Virus record (IMG/VR): IMGVR_UViG_3300021091_000089
Span: 1-55,977 of that record
Reading direction: 5' to 3' (one strand)
Length of the DNA stretch: 55,977 nucleotides
DNA from: a virus
Numbering within the stretch: the first letter of the stretch is position 1; each line of letters begins with the position of its first letter. This document shows, piece by piece, positions 17,933 through 49,872 of the stretch. Both the position numbers and the translations under genes were made by a program. The notes beneath the pieces are model-generated. The model ran no database searches, was not told the DNA's origin, and was given only the letters and a program-made list of their open reading frames with translations.

Positions 17933-17962
17933 GGCAGGGGACAAAGAACCCCTGCCCCTTTT
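17933..17962 (+). terminator. Intrinsic terminator between convergent late and early blocks
   Basis: GGCAGGGG (17933-17940) pairs with CCCCTGCC (17949-17956), an 8-bp stem with an 8-nt loop, followed by CCTTTTC. It sits between the end of the 2721-aa gene and the end of the convergent primase-helicase gene. The T-run favours the plus strand. The rest of 17855-17961 holds no supported gene. Confidence 0.7.
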
Positions 17963-20835
17963 CAAGCTGCTTCCATGGGTATCGGATCTTCATCATCTTC
18001 GTCAATTCTGCGAGAGATCTTCATGGCGTTGACGCGCATCTGTGGGCCTTTAGTCTTTGACATGAGGTCCTTCTTGGAATACGACACCATGTACATCGCC
18101 TCCATCTGCCGCTTAAAATCCGTGTAGCCAAAGCTCATACTGGAGCAGTACTGTTTCATCAACTTCTCTTCTATGTAGAAGTCAACAAACCCCACCGTGA
18201 CGCCGTGTTCCACACGCCCAAAGATCTCGCTGCGGGTAATGCTCTGGTCAATAACGCCATTGTCGCCAAGGGATGCTGCCAACGTATTATCTAGGGTTTT
18301 CACTACCACAAACTTACCGTAGAACTCTCTGATGTAAGCGTTTAGAATGTCCTCGGCTGTTCGGACATTGGCTTTGATCGTAGCCCGTGCGTTCTGCACG
18401 ATCTTGCGCAGAACCTCTGTTATGCCTGCCATGGGGAAGTCAGCGATCTTGGCGTGTGATGATCCAGCCAGAAGCCCACCAGCCAGCAGACAGGTACAGC
18501 CTGCCAGCCAGTACCGCTCATCATCGGTGAATTGAAAGTCGCGTTTCAGTTTGGCCCGAACCTGCCGGACGGTGTCCTCCACAACGTCTTTGTTATCCAC
18601 AAGAAACTGTGCGTACTGCTGACCTGCCACCCCGTAGTTATTTTTCAGGGTGGAGATGATCTCCGTGTCGCCTTCTTGCCACTGAATGATGTTGCTTAGG
18701 GTCAACTCTAATACCCGCCGAATTTCACCTTCTGATGAGTGTTTCCGTGCTCCAGTCAGGTAGTCGATCACGTGGGTGTTGGAGGATAGCAGCGCCATGG
18801 ACTTCCAATAGGTCGTGTTCTCGCGCTCTTTGTTGGCGCCAGACTCCATCCGCTCTTTGCCTTGCCCCTCTGCCATATCGAAGATAAACCCAGGCATCCA
18901 TTCAAAATCTTTGCGGTTCTTACTGGTGATTTCGTCAGAGATCAGGGGCAGGTTGTTCAACATCCCCAGGCGTTGTTGCATCGCCACATCAGACGTGGAC
19001 TTGCTCACCCTGAACTTGGTGGGATGCCCCCATATGGACGCAGCCAGTTCTAAGGTTAGGGTTTTCCCTGTACCAGATTCACTAGACCCCAGGTGAAACG
19101 TAAACCCGTCATACCCCGTGAATCGCATCAGCGGGGCACCAAAGCCCACCAGAGAGAGCGCCAACACCTCGTGCATCTTCCTGGCAGTCAGCATGTTGAT
19201 GACCTTTCGCCAGTTATCCAGCGTGCCTGTGGGCACCGTGGCCTTATTGATGTTGACCAGATGGCGCATAGGTATGTGGCGCGGTACAGAATGAGGGGCG
19301 TACACCCGCTCATTAAAGACAAAGGTATCGTTGAGTTGCCACCCATAACTGTCTGGTACATCCACAGTTTTCTGGTTGGCTGACGCCTGTTCTACAGCGG
19401 CCCGAACGTACTCGTAAAGGTTTTTATCATTGCCCGACCCAAACAATGCCATGACGTTTTGCTGGGCTAGGGTTTTTATCGTCTCGTCTTTTGATGCCGT
19501 GGCGCGTTGTGACATGGTTATTTCCTGAGCGCCGGTGGGGCGCATCGCCAACATGTGCACGGTGTGTTCGTTGCTCTGGCACAGAATATTTACTACAAAC
19601 AAGTCATACGGAATAAGAGGAACTTGGTTAGTGCTCTGGTTTCCTTGGGCATCTGTGGTTGTTTTATCCAAGTAAACCCCACCATTCTTACCGTATGAAT
19701 ACCCCTTTGGTGGCGCAGGTCTTGTAATGGTGATGGGCGTGGGTGTCTTCGGTAGTGGTTCTATGACCACTTCTTTTTCTGTCGTTTCCAGTTCTACCTC
19801 GCGTCCAAGCGCCAGAGGGTTGGTAATTTTGCCGAAGTGTGGGCACCCACTACATACTCCAGGGTTGAGACTGTCGATCTTGACGCAGGCGTACGGACCT
19901 TTGATCTCGTTGAGCTTAGTCTGCATACGCTCAGCGTCGTAAGGATGTAACTGACTTAGCCAAACTGCCGCCTTGATCCCATCTTTGCAAGGCTTGGCAA
20001 TCGACAACATTGCACGCCATAACGGTTCCATGCCATCGTCTGCAGCGTTTTCAATGTAGTGCGCTAGTTGCCCACACCCTGTGCCTTCTTTAGTGCGCGT
20101 CAGAATGTTTTTAAATACTGTCACGCTGTTTGACATAAGCGTGAGGTTTGTCTGGCTTTTAGATGTTGGGCGTGTACCGGGCAGACTAAGGGCTGGCATC
20201 GCCACCGGTTTGACGGTCAACTTAGAGTTGATGAACTCTTCCAGCGTTTCTAAGTCAAAAGCACCAGAGCCTTCTCCTAACAGCTTTACAGGTTTGGGCG
20301 GGTTGAACTTAAAGTTTAGCGTCCCTGGTACGCGTAGTACCCTGGCGGCATCAGCCGTGCAGTTCCAGTCAATCTCCATCCCTTCCTGTTTCAACAGTCG
20401 CTTAAAATTCTCTGCGACAGGTTTCCATCGGGCGACTTCGGCTTCCTCGGTCAGAGGCCAGTAGATGTGATACCCACCGCCTGATGACACGACAATTGGC
20501 TGGCCCAGCGTGTTCATGCCAGTTTTAAGCATGAACTCCTCAAATGCCTGTGCAGCTTCTTTGCGCGTCTTGTACCGCTTCTTGTCGCCCAGGTCTACGT
20601 CTATAAACAACGACTTTAAGACACGCGCATTGTCTGCGGTTCTGTTGTCCTTTGTTTTGTATGCAGCTAGGCCAAAATAACTGTGCAGTCCTTTCTGCAC
20701 AAATACATTTGCTGCGCTAGGGATTTCCCTAATATCAGATAAAAAGACGTGCTCTCTTCTTGGTGTGTCGAATTCTGCAACACAATAAAAACCGGAAGAC
20801 GGGAGCACTGCCGCTAGAAAATCAAGCGGTTGCAT
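17962..20835 (-). CDS. Primase-helicase fusion (AEP-like primase plus DUF927-type helicase)
   Basis: This 957-aa protein begins with an archaeo-eukaryotic primase/RepB-type domain: FIDVDLG with Asp79 and Asp81, SSGGGYHIYW with His123, and ADAARVLRVPGTLNFK. These are the metal and nucleotide-binding positions of that fold. A Cys-containing stretch (about residues 317-333, GVCSGCPHFG) may bind zinc. The C-terminal half has Walker A GSSESGTGKT (583-592) and LPLISDEIT (about 629-637) as Walker B, matching DUF927-like helicases of mobile elements. One polypeptide would unwind DNA and lay primers for the encoded family A polymerase. It is the last gene of the minus-strand block and ends at the convergent terminator. 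Confidence 0.88.
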   Translation of the reverse strand: MQPLDFLAAVLPSSGFYCVAEFDTPRREHVFLSDIREIPSAANVFVQKGLHSYFGLAAYKTKDNRTADNARVLKSLFIDVDLGDKKRYKTRKEAAQAFEEFMLKTGMNTLGQPIVVSSGGGYHIYWPLTEEAEVARWKPVAENFKRLLKQEGMEIDWNCTADAARVLRVPGTLNFKFNPPKPVKLLGEGSGAFDLETLEEFINSKLTVKPVAMPALSLPGTRPTSKSQTNLTLMSNSVTVFKNILTRTKEGTGCGQLAHYIENAADDGMEPLWRAMLSIAKPCKDGIKAAVWLSQLHPYDAERMQTKLNEIKGPYACVKIDSLNPGVCSGCPHFGKITNPLALGREVELETTEKEVVIEPLPKTPTPITITRPAPPKGYSYGKNGGVYLDKTTTDAQGNQSTNQVPLIPYDLFVVNILCQSNEHTVHMLAMRPTGAQEITMSQRATASKDETIKTLAQQNVMALFGSGNDKNLYEYVRAAVEQASANQKTVDVPDSYGWQLNDTFVFNERVYAPHSVPRHIPMRHLVNINKATVPTGTLDNWRKVINMLTARKMHEVLALSLVGFGAPLMRFTGYDGFTFHLGSSESGTGKTLTLELAASIWGHPTKFRVSKSTSDVAMQQRLGMLNNLPLISDEITSKNRKDFEWMPGFIFDMAEGQGKERMESGANKERENTTYWKSMALLSSNTHVIDYLTGARKHSSEGEIRRVLELTLSNIIQWQEGDTEIISTLKNNYGVAGQQYAQFLVDNKDVVEDTVRQVRAKLKRDFQFTDDERYWLAGCTCLLAGGLLAGSSHAKIADFPMAGITEVLRKIVQNARATIKANVRTAEDILNAYIREFYGKFVVVKTLDNTLAASLGDNGVIDQSITRSEIFGRVEHGVTVGFVDFYIEEKLMKQYCSSMSFGYTDFKRQMEAMYMVSYSKKDLMSKTKGPQMRVNAMKISRRIDEDDEDPIPMEAA

Positions 20836-31665: not shown

Positions 31666-32856
<1,191 letters not shown>

Positions 32857-32858
32857 GG

Positions 32859-33998
32859 TTACACCTTGTAGAAGATACGGTTGTCGTTCATCATCTCGCC
32901 GAACTCAGCGATGGTGGAGTACAGACCGAGGTGTAGCGTGGCTGATGCAGACACACGGCGCAGGAACAATGACTGCACCTCTGGTTGTAGCCGCCTGATG
33001 TAGAGCGTGAACGCCTGTGCATCGTCGCGTGTCTTGGTCTGTGCCAACGAACGGAACACCACCACCTGCTGCGCGATCTTGTTGTCTGGCACTGGTGTGT
33101 TAAGAGGATCAGCCAGTATGTCTGTGTTGCGTGGCACCTGCGCACCGAACCGGATGAACGACATCAGGATAGAGGTAAATGCTTTGCCCACTGTGCCAGA
33201 AAGTGCTTGTTCCAAAGTAGCACTATCGAACCCCCCCACGGCATATGCGTCGAGGATGTCTGACGCAGCATGTAAGGTACGCGGCGACGCATAGGCATCT
33301 TGGACTTCTTGCGGGTTGTAAATTGATGGGTTGTCTTTCTTCTGATCTTTGTTTTCATATCTGCCTCCTGGTAAGTAGTCAACGAATGAGTCAAGCACCT
33401 GCGGGTTCTCCTCCACGCAGGCTATGAGGATGGGGTTCAACCCCATGGGCATGGCAAAGTTCTGTATCCACTCCTGCCCGTCAGCTTTGCGCAGCTTGAC
33501 CACGATCAGCCTGTTGCGCAGGTGTGCCGCTAGGCTGTCACCCAGACCCTCAATGGCGAGGTTCGTAGCGCCGAACACCACCGACCGCTCGGGCCAGTAC
33601 ATCGTCCCCACCCTGCGCTCATACATCATGGGCGCGATCATGTTCTTAACGAACTGTGGAATCTTGGCGACCTCGTCGAACATCACAAGCACAGGGCGCT
33701 CTTTGTCTGCACCGCGCTGGTTGCCAAAGCTCAGGCCCAGCCGTTGGTTGGGTAGCTCACGGGCTATGCCCTGCTCACGGTCAATGTCTGGCATGAACAA
33801 CGAACCATCAGACAACTGCGTGCAGTCGATGGGCGCAGGCTTGATGTGGTCAGCAAAGAACGGATCAGCCGACAGCGTGCGGTGTAGCCATGACTTGCCT
33901 GTGCCGTTCTCACCCATTATGAGGACGGTGCGCTTGTGGCCCACGGCCTTGATCAGATCAACGATCTGGCTGTGTGTAAGGAATTCATTAGCATCCAT
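32859..33998 (-). CDS. MoxR/CobS-like AAA+ ATPase
   Basis: I use ATG 33998, preceded by AAAGGAG at 8-10 bases, giving 379 aa. The long in-frame extension to 34145 would run through a promoter. Walker A is MGENGTGKSW (29-36), Walker B is VLVMFDEVAKIPQ (about 103-113), sensor 1 is VVFGATNLA, and an arginine-rich HLRNRLIVVKLR follows, all in MoxR/CobS order. The ATPase drives conformational change in a VWA partner, encoded right after it. A consensus sigma70-type promoter stands just upstream, so the AAA+/VWA/DUF3150-like group can be expressed as a sub-operon. Confidence 0.88.
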   Translation of the reverse strand: MDANEFLTHSQIVDLIKAVGHKRTVLIMGENGTGKSWLHRTLSADPFFADHIKPAPIDCTQLSDGSLFMPDIDREQGIARELPNQRLGLSFGNQRGADKERPVLVMFDEVAKIPQFVKNMIAPMMYERRVGTMYWPERSVVFGATNLAIEGLGDSLAAHLRNRLIVVKLRKADGQEWIQNFAMPMGLNPILIACVEENPQVLDSFVDYLPGGRYENKDQKKDNPSIYNPQEVQDAYASPRTLHAASDILDAYAVGGFDSATLEQALSGTVGKAFTSILMSFIRFGAQVPRNTDILADPLNTPVPDNKIAQQVVVFRSLAQTKTRDDAQAFTLYIRRLQPEVQSLFLRRVSASATLHLGLYSTIAEFGEMMNDNRIFYKV

Positions 33999-34039
33999 GG
34001 TTGTACTCTCCTTTTGGAATTTAACTGCATTGTTAAAAG

Positions 34040-34068
34040 ATTGTAGAGCAAAGTAAAACCTTTGACAA
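34040..34068 (-). promoter_or_regulatory. Sigma70-type promoter for the AAA+/VWA cluster
   Basis: On the minus strand TTGTCA (34068-34063) and TACAAT (34045-34040) are separated by exactly 17 bases. The predicted start is near 34033, about 35 bases before the AAA+ ATG at 33998. It lies in the gap before the gene. It supports separate expression of the cluster by host RNA polymerase. Confidence 0.65.
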
Positions 34069-34074
34069 GCGTTT

Positions 34075-34275
34075 TTATACGGCATCCTCCTTCCTATTGA
34101 TACGTTGACAATAACGACGGTACTGCTCAGGCGTGTGCCTTGCAATGATGGTCAGGCGTCGGGGTGCGCCGTTCATGTGCTCAATCCAGCGGTCAAAACT
34201 GGCGTAGTCCAGTGCCTCTTGCTTGGTCTTGAACTTGTGGGTGCTCCCCTCGACTGTGTAGATATATTTGCCCAT
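34075..34275 (-). CDS. Small basic protein of unknown function (66 aa)
   Basis: ATG 34275 has AAAGGAG upstream. It starts MGKYIYTVEGSTHKFKTKQE, a beta hairpin followed by a helix, and ends RRYCQRINRKEDAV. The opening strand-helix pattern loosely resembles the MK-x-YEI small proteins near 37-38 kb. No family is recognised. Confidence 0.6.
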   Translation of the reverse strand: MGKYIYTVEGSTHKFKTKQEALDYASFDRWIEHMNGAPRRLTIIARHTPEQYRRYCQRINRKEDAV

Positions 34276-34310: not shown

Positions 34311-35315
34311 TTACTTATACATAAACTCATCGTAGCCGTAGTCGCTGCTCGCGTACTTGGCAGACTCTATCGGCTCGCCGAACAACTCGTTGCGCACCAG
34401 CATGACGAAGGTTTCTGGGTCGGTGTATGCCATGTCGAACATCTCCGCCTTTGTCATGCCGTACAGACTGTAGTCGTTATCTGTAGTTTGTTTGTAGTAA
34501 CTGCCACCCCTGGCCCAGCTGTAGTCTTTGTAGTCATTGACCTGCGGATCTCTGTCGGTGGGCAGTGCTTCCCAGTCGATGGTCAGGCAAGAGTCACGCA
34601 GGTGGAACAGTGTGGGCAGGTGTAGCGTCTCGTTGCCGGTGTGCTCGTTGAGGTAGCCGCACGAGATGTTGGTGCACTCAGGGATGATGTGGGTGTAGTT
34701 GGCAGTGTCAGTGAACACGCCCGTGTCGTCTGGCTCGTAGATGTTGTGCTCGTTGTCATTGAGTGCATCAGCCAAGGCTTGGGCGAAAATATCCGAGCAA
34801 CACCGACCCCAGCCCTGGTGTGTGATGACGCTTGTGCTGCCGCGTCTGTCGAAGGCGATGGCACGCTTGAACTTGTAGAGCACATCAGGATACTGCTTGG
34901 CGATGTGGCTTGAACCCAGGCCACCACACTCTTCTGCGCGGTGGAAAAAGTAACAGCCAGGCACACCGGCGTCGATCATCTCCAGCATGAGCCATGCGCC
35001 AGCCGCATCGTCAGCACCCAGAGGCTCACCATCGGCTTTGAAATAGGTCTGCGTTGCGCGGTGGAACTTGGCACGCTGATGCCCCTCGGTGCGGTGCACA
35101 GTGTCGGTGTGGCAAGAGAACATAGTGTGTGGCGTGCGCCCGTCAGGGTGTAGCACCGTGACGACCAGGGCCATGTCGTCCACATTGGTGGGGTCATACG
35201 GCATGATGAACCGCTCGATCCACTGTGCCTCAGACTTCGACTTGTGTGGGCGCTTGTACCTGAGCATCTCGTGCAGACGCTCGTCGTAGAAAACAGAATT
35301 AGATTCTCGTGTCAT
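34311..35315 (-). CDS. M28/M20-type metallopeptidase
   Basis: This 334-aa protein has the co-catalytic dizinc set: MFSCHTDTVH (His69, Asp71), LGADDAAGAWLML (Asp102), FFHRAEECGGLGSS (Glu128, Glu129), IAFDRRGSTS (Asp156) and YLNEHTGNETLH (His225), which is the M28/M20/M42 aminopeptidase/carboxypeptidase arrangement. An intact site argues for an active enzyme rather than a remnant. The C-terminal 80 residues are Tyr/Asp-rich and unusual for the family. Cytosolic exopeptidases of this class are rare in phages. Substrates could be host peptides or defence signals, which is inference. It has its own ribosome site (TAAGGAG). Confidence 0.85.
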   Translation of the reverse strand: MTRESNSVFYDERLHEMLRYKRPHKSKSEAQWIERFIMPYDPTNVDDMALVVTVLHPDGRTPHTMFSCHTDTVHRTEGHQRAKFHRATQTYFKADGEPLGADDAAGAWLMLEMIDAGVPGCYFFHRAEECGGLGSSHIAKQYPDVLYKFKRAIAFDRRGSTSVITHQGWGRCCSDIFAQALADALNDNEHNIYEPDDTGVFTDTANYTHIIPECTNISCGYLNEHTGNETLHLPTLFHLRDSCLTIDWEALPTDRDPQVNDYKDYSWARGGSYYKQTTDNDYSLYGMTKAEMFDMAYTDPETFVMLVRNELFGEPIESAKYASSDYGYDEFMYK

Positions 35316-38435: not shown

Positions 38436-38597
38436 TCACACCCCCTTCTTTCTAAGAACGACACACTCGGACTTGAACCGCGCCCACTCTTGCTTGCCAT
38501 CACTGGCTTTTGGGACAGGTTGTCCCAAAGATTGTTTACCTTCAAAAGGTTTTGTTTTTACTGCGCGTAACAGCACACACTGCTCTGGTTTTAACAT
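38436..38597 (-). CDS. Small protein spanning palindrome copy 1 (53 aa)
   Basis: ATG 38597 has AAGGAG seven bases upstream and the frame closes at TGA 38436, 1 base before the next start. The product MLKPEQCVLLRAVKTKPFEG continues KQSLGQPVPKASDGKQEWAR and ends basic. Residues LGQPVP are encoded by the first copy of the repeated palindrome, so the repeat is tolerated in a coding frame. No family is recognised. Confidence 0.5.
   Translation of the reverse strand: MLKPEQCVLLRAVKTKPFEGKQSLGQPVPKASDGKQEWARFKSECVVLRKKGV
38509..38529. repeat. Palindrome copy 1
   Basis: TTTGGGACA, spacer GGT, TGTCCCAAA: perfect 9-bp arms around 3 bases. It lies inside the 53-aa frame. Identical arms occur in four further copies within 2.1 kb. 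Confidence 0.9.
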
Positions 38598-38650: not shown

Positions 38651-38671
38651 TTTGGGACATGGTGTCCCAAA
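38651..38671. repeat. Palindrome copy 2
   Basis: TTTGGGACA, spacer TGG, TGTCCCAAA. It lies 7 bases beyond the end of the 38679-39281 gene and before the 53-aa gene. Confidence 0.9.
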
Positions 38672-38678
38672 ATCTTTC

Positions 38679-39281
38679 TCACATCTTGTAGTCAGAGGCC
38701 AGCATCTGGCGCCAATCTTTGGGCGGTTTCTTGCCCTTCTGTTTCAGCACGCTGATGATGTATCTGGCCTTGCGTATGTCTTCCCGTAAATTCGTTATGG
38801 CTAACTCAGTCATACCATGCGCACGATCCACACGCTTGGACAGTTTCATCAGTTCGTTTTGTATTCGGGCGTAGTCATCGGCGAACAGCTTGCGCCTTGT
38901 CTTACGGATAACTTCTTTGTGAGTAGTGGTGGCACGCTGTTTTCGTTTGGCGATCTTGACCTCAACAACGAAGTCGTGCACACCCTCGGCACGCAGTCGG
39001 CGACGCATTTGCTCACGGGTTAGATCTTCAGGGCGCTTGGTTTTGGCGTCGTGACAGTCGTTGCACTCCTTGCCTTCGTACTGAAGTCGGCGTTGAGCGA
39101 GAGGGTTGTGTAGCCAAGCGCGAGTCTGAGCCAAAGACGCAAGGCGTTTGAAATGGCTCAAAGATTTTAATTGCAGACAGCTTGAACACCACGCCCCGTC
39201 TGGCTTTGAAGGCAAAGCAAGTGCGTAATCATGGGTGTAATCGGGGTCGGAAGTGTCCAGTAAAAATTTCCAAGTGGACAT
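38679..39281 (-). CDS. Early protein with four-Cys zinc site and coiled tail
   Basis: ATG 39281 follows GAGGAG. A TTG start 18 bases upstream is weaker. The 200-aa product has Cys32, Cys35, Cys73 and Cys76 (AWCSSCLQL and GKECNDCHDA), a zinc-bound fold similar to the treble clef of HNH proteins but without the HNH catalytic residues that I can see. It then has a strongly basic region (KIAKRKQRATTTHKEVIRKT) and a coiled C-terminus. It may bind DNA near the repeat-rich region that begins at its own 5' end, where GTGTCCA elements overlap its first codons. Confidence 0.65.
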   Translation of the reverse strand: MSTWKFLLDTSDPDYTHDYALALPSKPDGAWCSSCLQLKSLSHFKRLASLAQTRAWLHNPLAQRRLQYEGKECNDCHDAKTKRPEDLTREQMRRRLRAEGVHDFVVEVKIAKRKQRATTTHKEVIRKTRRKLFADDYARIQNELMKLSKRVDRAHGMTELAITNLREDIRKARYIISVLKQKGKKPPKDWRQMLASDYKM

Positions 39282-39555
39282 GAAGTGGACTCTCCTCAAA
39301 GGTTAGTGGAAGACGCTTGCGAGCGGGTGCGTCACAGGTATCATACCAAAAAAAAGAAAGGGCAAAGGAAAAGAACAAAGAAGGCCAAAAAAGAAAAAAG
39401 AGTGTCCACTTGTCTAGCCCCCTATAATAATAATAATATAAATATAAATATATTATTATAGATGTGCCTCAAAGTGGACAGCGCTAGCACTGGCGCGGGT
39501 TCGGGGGTGTCCATGTCGTGTCCACTACGCGCCAAAAGTGGGAAGTGCTGGACAC
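39253..39555. repeat. Cluster of GTGTCCA/TGGACAC iteron-like repeats
   Basis: Copies of GTGTCCA or its complement (partly extended to GTGTCCACT) are seen at 39253, 39274, 39285 (short TGGAC form), 39402, 39474, 39507, 39518 and 39549, on both strands. They flank an all-A/T inverted repeat. The segment 39282-39623 holds no supported gene, so it is free to act as an origin or control region. The exact repeat unit is my reading of the sequence. Confidence 0.6.
39422..39461. repeat. 40-bp A/T inverted repeat (candidate unwinding element)
   Basis: CTATAATAATA and its reverse complement TATTATTATAG close the two ends (11-bp arms), and the 38 bases between the outer C and G are all A or T. It sits at the centre of the GTGTCCA repeats. 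Easily melted palindromes beside iterons are hallmarks of replication origins. A terminator or promoter role is also possible. Confidence 0.6.
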
Positions 39556-39600
39556 GACCTGTTTTTACCCTAGTTACTACAAAGAAGTTATGCGTAAGGT

Positions 39601-39621
39601 TTTGGGACAAGCTGTCCCAAA
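39601..39621. repeat. Palindrome copy 3
   Basis: TTTGGGACA, spacer AGC, TGTCCCAAA. It begins 2 bases downstream of the stop codon of the 50-aa basic gene. Confidence 0.9.
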
Positions 39622-39623
39622 GA

Positions 39624-39776
39624 TTAAGCGTCCTTTCCAAGGCGTAGTTCAAGGCCTGACTTCCACTCGCGGGTTTGGGATTGCTCGCGCTTGAAGCGTA
39701 GCTCGCCTGCGTGGTGGCGTGGCTTGGGCGTGGTCTTGGGTGTGTGCTGGCGTTGGTCTTTGCGTGTCTTTGACAT
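39624..39776 (-). CDS. Small basic protein (50 aa)
   Basis: ATG 39776 follows AGGAG and the frame ends at TAA 39624. The product (MSKTRKDQRQHTPKTTPKPR, then HHAGELRFKREQSQTREWKS) is Lys/Arg/Gln-rich with no hydrophobic core, typical of small nucleic-acid binders. It ends 2 bases before palindrome copy 3. Confidence 0.55.
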   Translation of the reverse strand: MSKTRKDQRQHTPKTTPKPRHHAGELRFKREQSQTREWKSGLELRLGKDA

Positions 39777-40071: not shown

Positions 40072-40099
40072 AAAAAAAAAAAAGGGCGCCGAAGCGCCC
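40072..40099 (-). terminator. Strong intrinsic terminator after the first early gene
   Basis: On the minus strand GGGCGC-TTCG-GCGCCC is followed by 12 T residues (plus-strand A-run 40072-40083). It stands between the 40128-40532 gene and the rest of the leftward block, immediately past palindrome copy 4. Full block transcription would need escape from this site. Confidence 0.9.
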
Positions 40100-40105
40100 G
40101 CGGGG

Positions 40106-40126
40106 TTTGGGACAAGCTGTCCCAAA
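40106..40126. repeat. Palindrome copy 4
   Basis: TTTGGGACA, spacer AGC, TGTCCCAAA. It starts 1 base after the stop of the 40128-40532 gene and leads into the T-run terminator. Confidence 0.9.
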
Positions 40127-40532: not shown

Positions 40533-40552
40533 AAGTAGTTCTCCTTAAGATC

Positions 40553-40573
40553 TTTGGGACAGGTTGTCCCAAA
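40553..40573. repeat. Palindrome copy 5
   Basis: TTTGGGACA, spacer GGT, TGTCCCAAA. It lies in the 5' leader of the first leftward gene, between the candidate promoter and the ribosome site. This is where an operator or RNA hairpin would affect expression. Confidence 0.9.
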
Positions 40574-40622
40574 CCAGCGAACTGGCTGGACAGGCCGACT
40601 GGACTACCCAATCGACACTTAC

Positions 40623-40631
40623 ATTATAACA
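40623..40631 (-). promoter_or_regulatory. Extended -10 promoter for the leftward block
   Basis: On the minus strand TG-T-TATAAT is a perfect extended -10 element. No good -35 is seen at 17 bases. Transcription would start near 40615 and run through palindrome copy 5 into the 40532 gene. Confidence 0.6.
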
Positions 40632-40811
40632 TAATAGGTAGTTTGGCTTGCCTGCTGTCGAGCCATTTTGCGGTTTTGCTGACCCCACCGTGGGGTGGCC
40701 CCCCAAAATTTTGCGGCGTAGTGGGCGGAGGGAGAAACACTATTCCACTCCCACACTTCACAGTTGTAAAATCTTTATCAAATCCCCCCAACACACCACC
40801 CCTACAAAATA

Positions 40812-40840
40812 TTTTTAAAAATTTAAACAAGCATTGTCAA
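40812..40840 (-). promoter_or_regulatory. Second candidate leftward promoter
   Basis: Minus-strand TTGACA (40840-40835) is a perfect -35, followed after 17 bases by TAAAAA (40817-40812), a weak -10. It is just beyond the insulating terminator. The rest of 40574-41019 holds A/T-rich sequence, a small CCCCA-CCG-TGGGG hairpin near 40683-40695 and no other supported gene except the leader frame. Confidence 0.45.
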
Positions 40841-40859
40841 ACTTTATACATCAACAAAT

Positions 40860-40895
40860 AAAAAAATGCCCCCGGAGCTTGCGCTCAACGGGGGC
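40860..40895 (-). terminator. Insulating intrinsic terminator (minus strand)
   Basis: Minus strand GCCCCCG ... CGGGGGC with an inner GAGC/GCTC stem is followed by AT and a seven-T run. It would stop any leftward transcription coming out of the packaging genes before it reaches the early promoters. Read on the plus strand it has no T tail. Confidence 0.7.
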
Positions 40896-40934
40896 CAAGA
40901 GGGGAGGGAGGATTCCCCTGAAGGAGAACTACAC

Positions 40935-41045
40935 ATGGAAGCCCCTTGCAAGGCTTCACAAGCGAGTATACACTTCTGCCCACTGAGCACAAGCTCTGCT
41001 TACGGGAGGAACGACCCGCGTGTTAGATCATTTGGTAAATGCTGA
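40935..41045 (+). CDS. Possible leader peptide before terminase (36 aa)
   Basis: AAGGAG is placed 7 bases before ATG 40935, a better site than that of the following gene. The frame (MEAPCKASQASIHFCPLSTS) ends at 41045 inside the small terminase gene. It may be a leader peptide whose translation opens the terminase start by coupling, or a spurious frame. No family or hydrophobic signal is visible. Confidence 0.3.
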   Translation: MEAPCKASQASIHFCPLSTSSAYGRNDPRVRSFGKC

Positions 41046-49212: not shown

Positions 49213-49241
49213 TTGCTTTTTGATTTTCTTTGTGATACATT
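49213..49241 (+). promoter_or_regulatory. Promoter of the HNH endonuclease gene
   Basis: TTGCTT (-35), 17-base spacer, TACATT (-10) with a TG one base before it. It overlaps the end of the capsid terminator and gives the HNH gene independent expression, as befits an inserted gene. Confidence 0.6.
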
Positions 49242-49269
49242 GCCTGTTACTAAGTCAAAGGAGATCAGC

Positions 49270-49872
49270 ATGGACTACAGTCAATACCCCACAAACCGCG
49301 CCGATGCCAAGGCTATTGGTGCTAAGTACTACTTCACGGGCGAACCTTGCAAACACGGGCACATAGCCTTAAGGAAGACAAAAGGGTCGTGCGTTGAGTG
49401 TTTAAAAGTTGAATGGCAACAAGCAGCCGAAAAACGCGCCGACTACTTTGTGCAGTACAACAAACGCGAAGACGTTAAAGACCGTAAACACGATTGGTAT
49501 CAGGACAATAAAGAACAAGTTATTGCCGCAGCATCAACACGGCCTCAACATGTAAAGCGGCAATACCAAACAGCTTGGAAAGAGCGAAATGTATTGTGGG
49601 TTCGGGCCGACACAAAGGCGCGTCGAAGAAAACACCGGCAGGCTACACCTCCTTGGTTAACAAGAAAGCAAAAGTCTGAGATACGACAGATTTACCAAAT
49701 AGCCATAACCATGTCTAAAACCACGGGGGAGCAGTACGTTGTAGACCATATCGTACCTTTACGTTCGGATGCGGTTTGTGGTCTGCACGTCCCTTGGAAC
49801 CTGCGGGTAATGACCCAAGAAGAAAACTTGAAGAAGTCAAACAAGCTTCTTGACTCCCCCCAAAATACCTGA
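49270..49872 (+). CDS. Free-standing HNH endonuclease (homing type)
   Basis: I use ATG 49270 with AAAGGAG upstream, giving 200 aa. A start 19 codons earlier would overlap the promoter. The protein has a Cys/His-rich N-terminus (GEPCKHGHIALRKTKGSCVECL), a basic coiled linker, and the HNH core YVVDHIVPLRSDAVCGLH (Asp159, His160), NLRVMTQEENLKKSNK (Asn177, Asn186). Such enzymes cut one strand and spread between phages near essential genes. Insertion between capsid and the next structural gene, with its own promoter and behind a terminator, fits a mobile moron. The 98 bases after it hold no supported gene. Confidence 0.9.
   Translation: MDYSQYPTNRADAKAIGAKYYFTGEPCKHGHIALRKTKGSCVECLKVEWQQAAEKRADYFVQYNKREDVKDRKHDWYQDNKEQVIAAASTRPQHVKRQYQTAWKERNVLWVRADTKARRRKHRQATPPWLTRKQKSEIRQIYQIAITMSKTTGEQYVVDHIVPLRSDAVCGLHVPWNLRVMTQEENLKKSNKLLDSPQNT

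Follow-up and report, generated by a model that had tools for sequence, protein, structure and literature searches.

The segment at positions 39250–39560 is, judged by its sequence, probably the replication origin of the phage studied here. The phage is represented by the record of an uncultured virus of 55,977 bp, which was analysed over its full length and is called the window below. The first-pass annotation had proposed a melting element with surrounding initiator sites. This proposal is strongly supported by an architecture that is conserved across many genomes, by the dyad arrangement of the arms, and by a SaPIbov1-Rep-type helicase encoded in the window. The relevant features are compiled in Table 1.

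The core of the element extends from C39422 to G39461 and thus corresponds to the 40-bp, C/G-capped all-A/T sequence noted previously. It comprises 38 consecutive A/T positions with perfect 11-bp inverted ends (CTATAATAATA/TATTATTATAG); A/T runs in 60 shuffles reached at most 22. Around the core, eight GTGTCCACTT-like sites are found within 303 bp (39253–39555), on both strands and with irregular spacing, which bears out the earlier count of at least seven GTGTCCA/TGGACAC copies including their exact coordinates. Five of them contain an exact GTGTCCA (at 39253, 39402, 39507 and 39518 on the plus strand, and at 39549 on the minus strand). The other three, at 39272–39281, 39283–39292 and 39472–39481, are all located on the minus strand and deviate from GTGTCCACTT by one base. 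The two facing repeats, GTGTCCACTT ending at 39411 and AAGTGGACAG starting at 39472, are each separated from the core by exactly 10 bp. When the whole window was shuffled 200 times (order-1 Markov), a stretch of 303 bp contained at most two copies of GTGTCCA and at most six of GTCCA, compared to five and eight observed. Genome-wide, GTGTCCA occurs eight times with 8.2 copies expected; the motif is clustered at the element and not enriched overall.

Table 1. Features of the putative origin and of the proteins discussed (window coordinates).
Feature	Position	Strand	Basis or remark
Whole element, putative replication origin: two inverted arms around A/T core	39250–39560		Repeat and A/T statistics; architecture in relatives
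A/T core C-[38 A/T]-G, putative DNA-unwinding element	39422–39461		11-bp inverted ends
Iteron GTGTCCAGTA, left arm, within zinc-protein gene	39253–39262	+	Repeat scan
Iteron ATGTCCACTT, overlies zinc-protein start codon	39272–39281	-	Repeat scan
Iteron GAGTCCACTT, immediately upstream of zinc-protein start codon	39283–39292	-	Repeat scan
Iteron GTGTCCACTT, inner left, 10 bp from core	39402–39411	+	Repeat scan
Iteron CTGTCCACTT, inner right, 10 bp from core	39472–39481	-	Repeat scan
Iteron GTGTCCATGT, right arm	39507–39516	+	Repeat scan
Iteron GTGTCCACTA, right arm	39518–39527	+	Repeat scan
Iteron GTGTCCAGCA, right arm	39546–39555	-	Repeat scan
Conserved arm box GCGCTAGCACTGGCGCGGGTT (reverse complement AACCCGCGCCAGTGCTAGCGC)	39481–39501	+	Inverted partner in opposite arm in several relatives
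Primase-helicase, 957 aa, proposed initiator: AEP primase fused to SaPIbov1 Rep/Cch-type (DUF927) helicase	17962–20835	-	Profile and fold matches
Zinc-ribbon origin-adjacent protein, 200 aa	38679–39281	-	Family usually found beside element
Small basic protein, 50 aa	39624–39776	-	Transcribed toward origin-like element

No DnaA boxes (TTWTNCACA, at most one mismatch) were detected in 39240–39640, and the copies, being on both strands, do not form the tandem direct iterons of DnaA-assisted iteron-plasmid origins. Support for a cruciform or hairpin formed by the A/T core is weak and not compelling (z -1.8), and the folds of the arms (z -0.5 to -2.1) are near those of shuffles. Neither Rfam nor a BLASTN search against phage records gave a match for the element region.

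A leftward early cluster, which includes a family-A polymerase, an SF2 helicase and the primase-helicase, runs from 40.5 down to 18 kb. The packaging and structural genes (terminase, portal, capsid) are oriented rightward and start at 41.0 kb. The stretch 39282–39623 contains no supported gene, as had been stated before, and is flanked by leftward genes on both sides. The description of the element as lying beside the early control region has to be corrected: it is located between two leftward early genes, and the divergent gap to the late genes (40533–41019) follows about 1 kb further to the right. In many relatives, small basic ORFs resembling the product of 39624–39776 are found at the corresponding place. 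The zinc-protein gene starts with the ATG at 39281; the respective ORF (38679–39299) opens at an upstream TTG. With this ATG, one repeat therefore lies over the start codon, one just upstream, and one within the gene.

The same region harbours five perfect palindromes TTTGGGACA-N3-TGTCCCAAA (38509–38529, 38651–38671, 39601–39621, 40106–40126, 40553–40573), which are confined to it. Three of the five start 1–7 nt past the stop codon of a leftward gene, and a strong intrinsic terminator on the minus strand (40084–40099; GGGCGCTTCGGCGCCC plus a T-run) directly follows one of them. Most relatives have a repeated palindrome of their own, in which GACA-N3-TGTC usually forms the core (e.g. GCGACA, GCAGACA, GCTGACA); it clusters around the origin-like element too. 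The palindromes are candidates for operators or 3' RNA hairpins. Elsewhere in the early cluster, an AAA ATPase adjoins a DUF2201/VWA metallopeptidase-like protein (31666–34145, minus strand), and an M28 peptidase is encoded at 34311–35315. A zinc-finger/HNH-like ORF (49213–49872, plus strand) between the capsid and downstream structural genes resembles, as judged by eye, a homing-endonuclease insertion.

Searches of viral contigs with the large terminase and the zinc protein as queries yielded the relatives. The first-pass annotation had suggested searching for the repeat in relatives, and in all nine long genomes (records of 55–66 kb, window included) as well as in about 20 fragments the element indeed occupies the equivalent position, with a repeat sequence that varies by clade. 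Most relatives that reach far enough upstream show it. In the long genomes it was located via A/T content in seven cases, via its core in G016, and by reading the end of the genome in G034. One of the long genomes, G029, has a 123-bp end repeat and is therefore probably complete. When the left arm was aligned to the right arm in inverted orientation, 26 of 29 elements scored above 95% of shuffles; in direct orientation, six of 29 did. Both tallies count sequences from related genomes and not independent events. The flanks of about 100 bp each are inverted copies despite differing repeat sequences, and the left arm of the window is among the less symmetric ones (p 0.045). Within the arms, a box of the form AACCCGC..CTAGCG recurs; the window has a clear copy in its right arm and a degraded one in its left. 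The core is variable in sequence and mostly consists of 34–38 bp that are A/T-only or A/T-rich, often 36–38 nt. The iterons are GTGTCCAC in the clade of the window and in G016, ATACCCAC in G022, G023 and L069 (with mixed sites in G026), of the TATCC type in G024, G028 and G029, and TTGCACGC in L085; G034 contains GTGTCCACTT sites. Thus, the plan of the element is kept while its A/T sequence and its repeat change. Furthermore, 2.9 million viral contigs were scanned at the DNA level for facing iterons around a 32-nt A/T run. All six matching contigs are members of the family. Two of them were new to the set of relatives; they carry genes for either the terminase and portal of the family or its origin-adjacent protein. 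HTVC027P, DSL-LC04, Pag-Yong1 and 023Pt_psg01 have related terminases, yet no detectable homologue of the 957-aa primase-helicase.

For this primase-helicase, the Pfam profile DUF927 (PF06048) scored 107.1 bits at a gathering cut-off of 22.6, and profile comparisons matched the solved structures of SCCmec Cch (5dgk) and of the SaPIbov1 initiator helicase Rep (8tch) with an E value of 7e-9. DUF927 is also part of Cch, a relative of SaPIbov1 Rep (PMC7581432). The AlphaFold model has a mean pLDDT of 68, is poor over residues 603–713, and is of low confidence in the AAA+ part. A fold search with this model identified 8tch (E 2e-9), the AEP primase domain of S-2L (6zp9, 6e-8) and RSF1010 RepB' (3h20, 6e-5). 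VIA-align gave Z values of 18.9 over 174 residues for the S-2L AEP domain, 13.1 for RepB', 12.1 over 414 residues for Cch, and 11.2 over 407 residues for SaPIbov1 Rep (model residues 375–944). The protein is therefore a fusion of an AEP primase with a Rep-like helicase that appears to be full-length. SaPI Rep recognizes origin iterons via its C-terminal domain (PMC7581432); such a domain is present in the model and, by analogy, may bind DNA. A tree of 11 primase-helicase sequences has three main clades, which correspond to the three main classes of iterons. G016 is placed with less certainty (88/92), and G034 with its GTGTCCACTT sites groups with the ACCCAC/mixed clade. We somewhat favour the primase-helicase as the reader of the iterons; shared whole-genome ancestry could also account for this correspondence.

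The zinc protein had been named as a candidate initiator or autoregulator. Its gene adjoins the element, is transcribed away from it, and has homologues across most of the phage family. The encoded proteins fall into the zinc-ribbon types A1 and A2 and a type A3 without zinc site, which are linked by profile comparisons (probabilities 98.3, 93.6, 94.6). In L034 and L035, no family member is found beside the element. The iteron GTGTCCAC co-occurs with A1, A2 and A3 and also with none of them; it is therefore unlikely that the origin-adjacent protein sets iteron identity. A role as main initiator has thus lost support: the same repeat occurs beside zinc-less relatives and, in two genomes, beside no member at all, and the repeat class follows the primase-helicase tree. 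Sequence comparison makes it more likely that the protein is an accessory factor or regulator than the main repeat reader, and the part of the earlier proposal that concerns autoregulation stays a candidate. No homologues were found in phage records or species genomes, and a fairly confident model (pLDDT 83) gave no significant fold match.

The proximity of this gene bears on a second interpretation, namely early transcription control, in which the repeats would be operators through which the origin-adjacent protein represses the operon it belongs to, and the A/T element a promoter or bendable spacer. The repeats do overlap the start of the zinc-protein gene, which in relatives, too, usually adjoins the element and points away from it. 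However, an operator array needs no symmetric arms flanking an A/T core, and the sequence of this core is free (TATAATAA, TATATATA, ATACATAC) while its length and the dyad frame are kept. Promoter-like sites are near chance (three found, 1.8 expected), and one iteron class accompanies differing protein subtypes and also occurs without the protein (L034, L035). We regard this interpretation as unlikely; transcription control could coexist with an origin. A packaging (pac) site for the small terminase, whose gene (41020) is about 1.5 kb away, is very improbable: the conserved feature is a 34–38-bp A/T core with facing iterons, which to our knowledge is not typical of pac sites, and the iteron class tracks the primase-helicase. 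Iteron clusters can also form plasmid centromeres, but a centromere-like array acting as partition or membrane-tether site is more improbable still, as it leaves the A/T core unexplained and no ParA/ParB-like protein was found among the scanned window proteins (a subset of the ORFs).

For an origin, a switch in GC skew had been predicted. In the window, the detrended cumulative GC skew reaches its minimum at 38,854, at a distance of 587 bp from the core; in seven of nine genomes, the minimum lies within 0.4–1.9 kb of the element (G028 and G034 differ). This agrees with the prediction; however, gene direction switches about 1 kb from the element and confounds the skew, and the local GC skew of the flanks alone shows no difference (mean -0.009 on both sides). 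For these two reasons, the skew neither proves nor refutes an origin.

Given the anatomy, conservation and dyad of the element and the homology of the enzyme, we infer the following course of binding, melting, loading and fork departure at the proposed origin. The primase-helicase would assemble at the short inverted iterons to either side of the 38-bp A/T core, probably contacting them via its C-terminal domain like SaPI Rep, and would melt this core. A Rep-like AAA+ ring would be loaded onto each strand, the fused AEP primase would lay the first primers, and the family-A DNA polymerase of the phage would extend them. Two forks would then depart in opposite directions, a bidirectionality to which we give even chances. 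The zinc-ribbon protein may act as an accessory origin factor or as an autoregulator that couples its own expression to origin occupancy.

The closest analogy is to the origins of PICIs and SaPIs (SaPIbov1, Gram-negative PICIs). An A/T region with a set of iterons on either side is a constant feature of PICI origins (PMC6092414). Shared features are the two sets of short iterons around an A/T melting region, a SaPIbov1-Rep-type DUF927 helicase initiator with an AEP primase, and an iteron sequence that varies by lineage. By contrast, the phage is full-size and has its own terminase, portal and capsid, whereas the satellites are helper-mobilised and lack structural genes. Moreover, its primase is fused to Rep, and the two flanks of its element are long inverted copies. 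The SaPI origin lies immediately 3' of rep, whereas the phage element is about 18.6 kb from the rep gene (stop 17962) and beside an undescribed protein family; a genome scan found no A/T core beside rep. It is plausible to assume that the element functions in the manner of a PICI/SaPI origin. In the strict sense it falls outside this class, because it is not located behind the rep gene and belongs to a full-size phage and not to a satellite.

Among other systems, Cch of SCCmec (5dgk) is, next to SaPIbov1 Rep, the other structural homologue of the helicase. Cch2 has a putative origin with short iterons (AAGTG); the Cch/Cch2 modules belong to an integrated cassette without such a primase fusion, for which an A/T core and a dyad do not seem to have been described. 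The oriV of RSF1010 contains an A/T region, iterons and two inverted priming sites, and RepB' is an AEP primase of similar fold (3h20, Z 13.1); RSF1010 differs by its separate RepA helicase and RepC iteron binder. As regards inverted single-strand priming hairpins of the kind used by its AEP primase, inverted arm boxes occur in the phage relatives, with a hairpin stability near that of shuffles. Origins of the pRN1 type share a PrimPol-helicase fusion initiator, which has been reported for some phages too (PMC4234260). They consist, however, of a single stem-loop of about 100 nt downstream of the rep gene with no iterons described; the z value of the phage core hairpin is -1.8.

Distant homologues of the primase-helicase were found in 19 phage records, two of which were inspected for the element. 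RHph_TM3_14A showed no clear element. In Pseudomonas phage Rollin L159 (OR577172.1), whose genome encodes a distant DUF927 primase-helicase, eight TTGCAT sites (TTGCAT/ATGCAA) within 420 bp flank an A/T-rich stretch of about 30 nt near position 551, in a gene-free region (261–677). The shuffle maximum was three, but this motif was picked after seeing the data. Region 261–677 is a possible origin, by its sequence, and Rollin a possible isolate for testing the origin reading.

We found no literature report of a satellite-type origin together with the same kind of starter enzyme in a self-sufficient phage. There is an even chance that we are dealing with a free-living phage family whose PICI/SaPI-type origin is located far from rep and is fired by a fusion of a primase with a SaPIbov1-like Rep helicase, with the help of an origin-adjacent zinc-ribbon family that had not been described before. 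In this family, iterons would switch between clades while the dyad plan is kept, forming a natural series of co-evolving initiator-origin pairs, with a hint of shared ancestry with satellite replicons. If this is true, the occurrence of the same plan and the same helicase family in full-size environmental phages would link satellite and phage replication. The at least four natural iteron classes offer material for studying how the DNA target of an AAA+ initiator shifts, and the architecture provides a sequence rule for locating the origin in many uncultured phage genomes.
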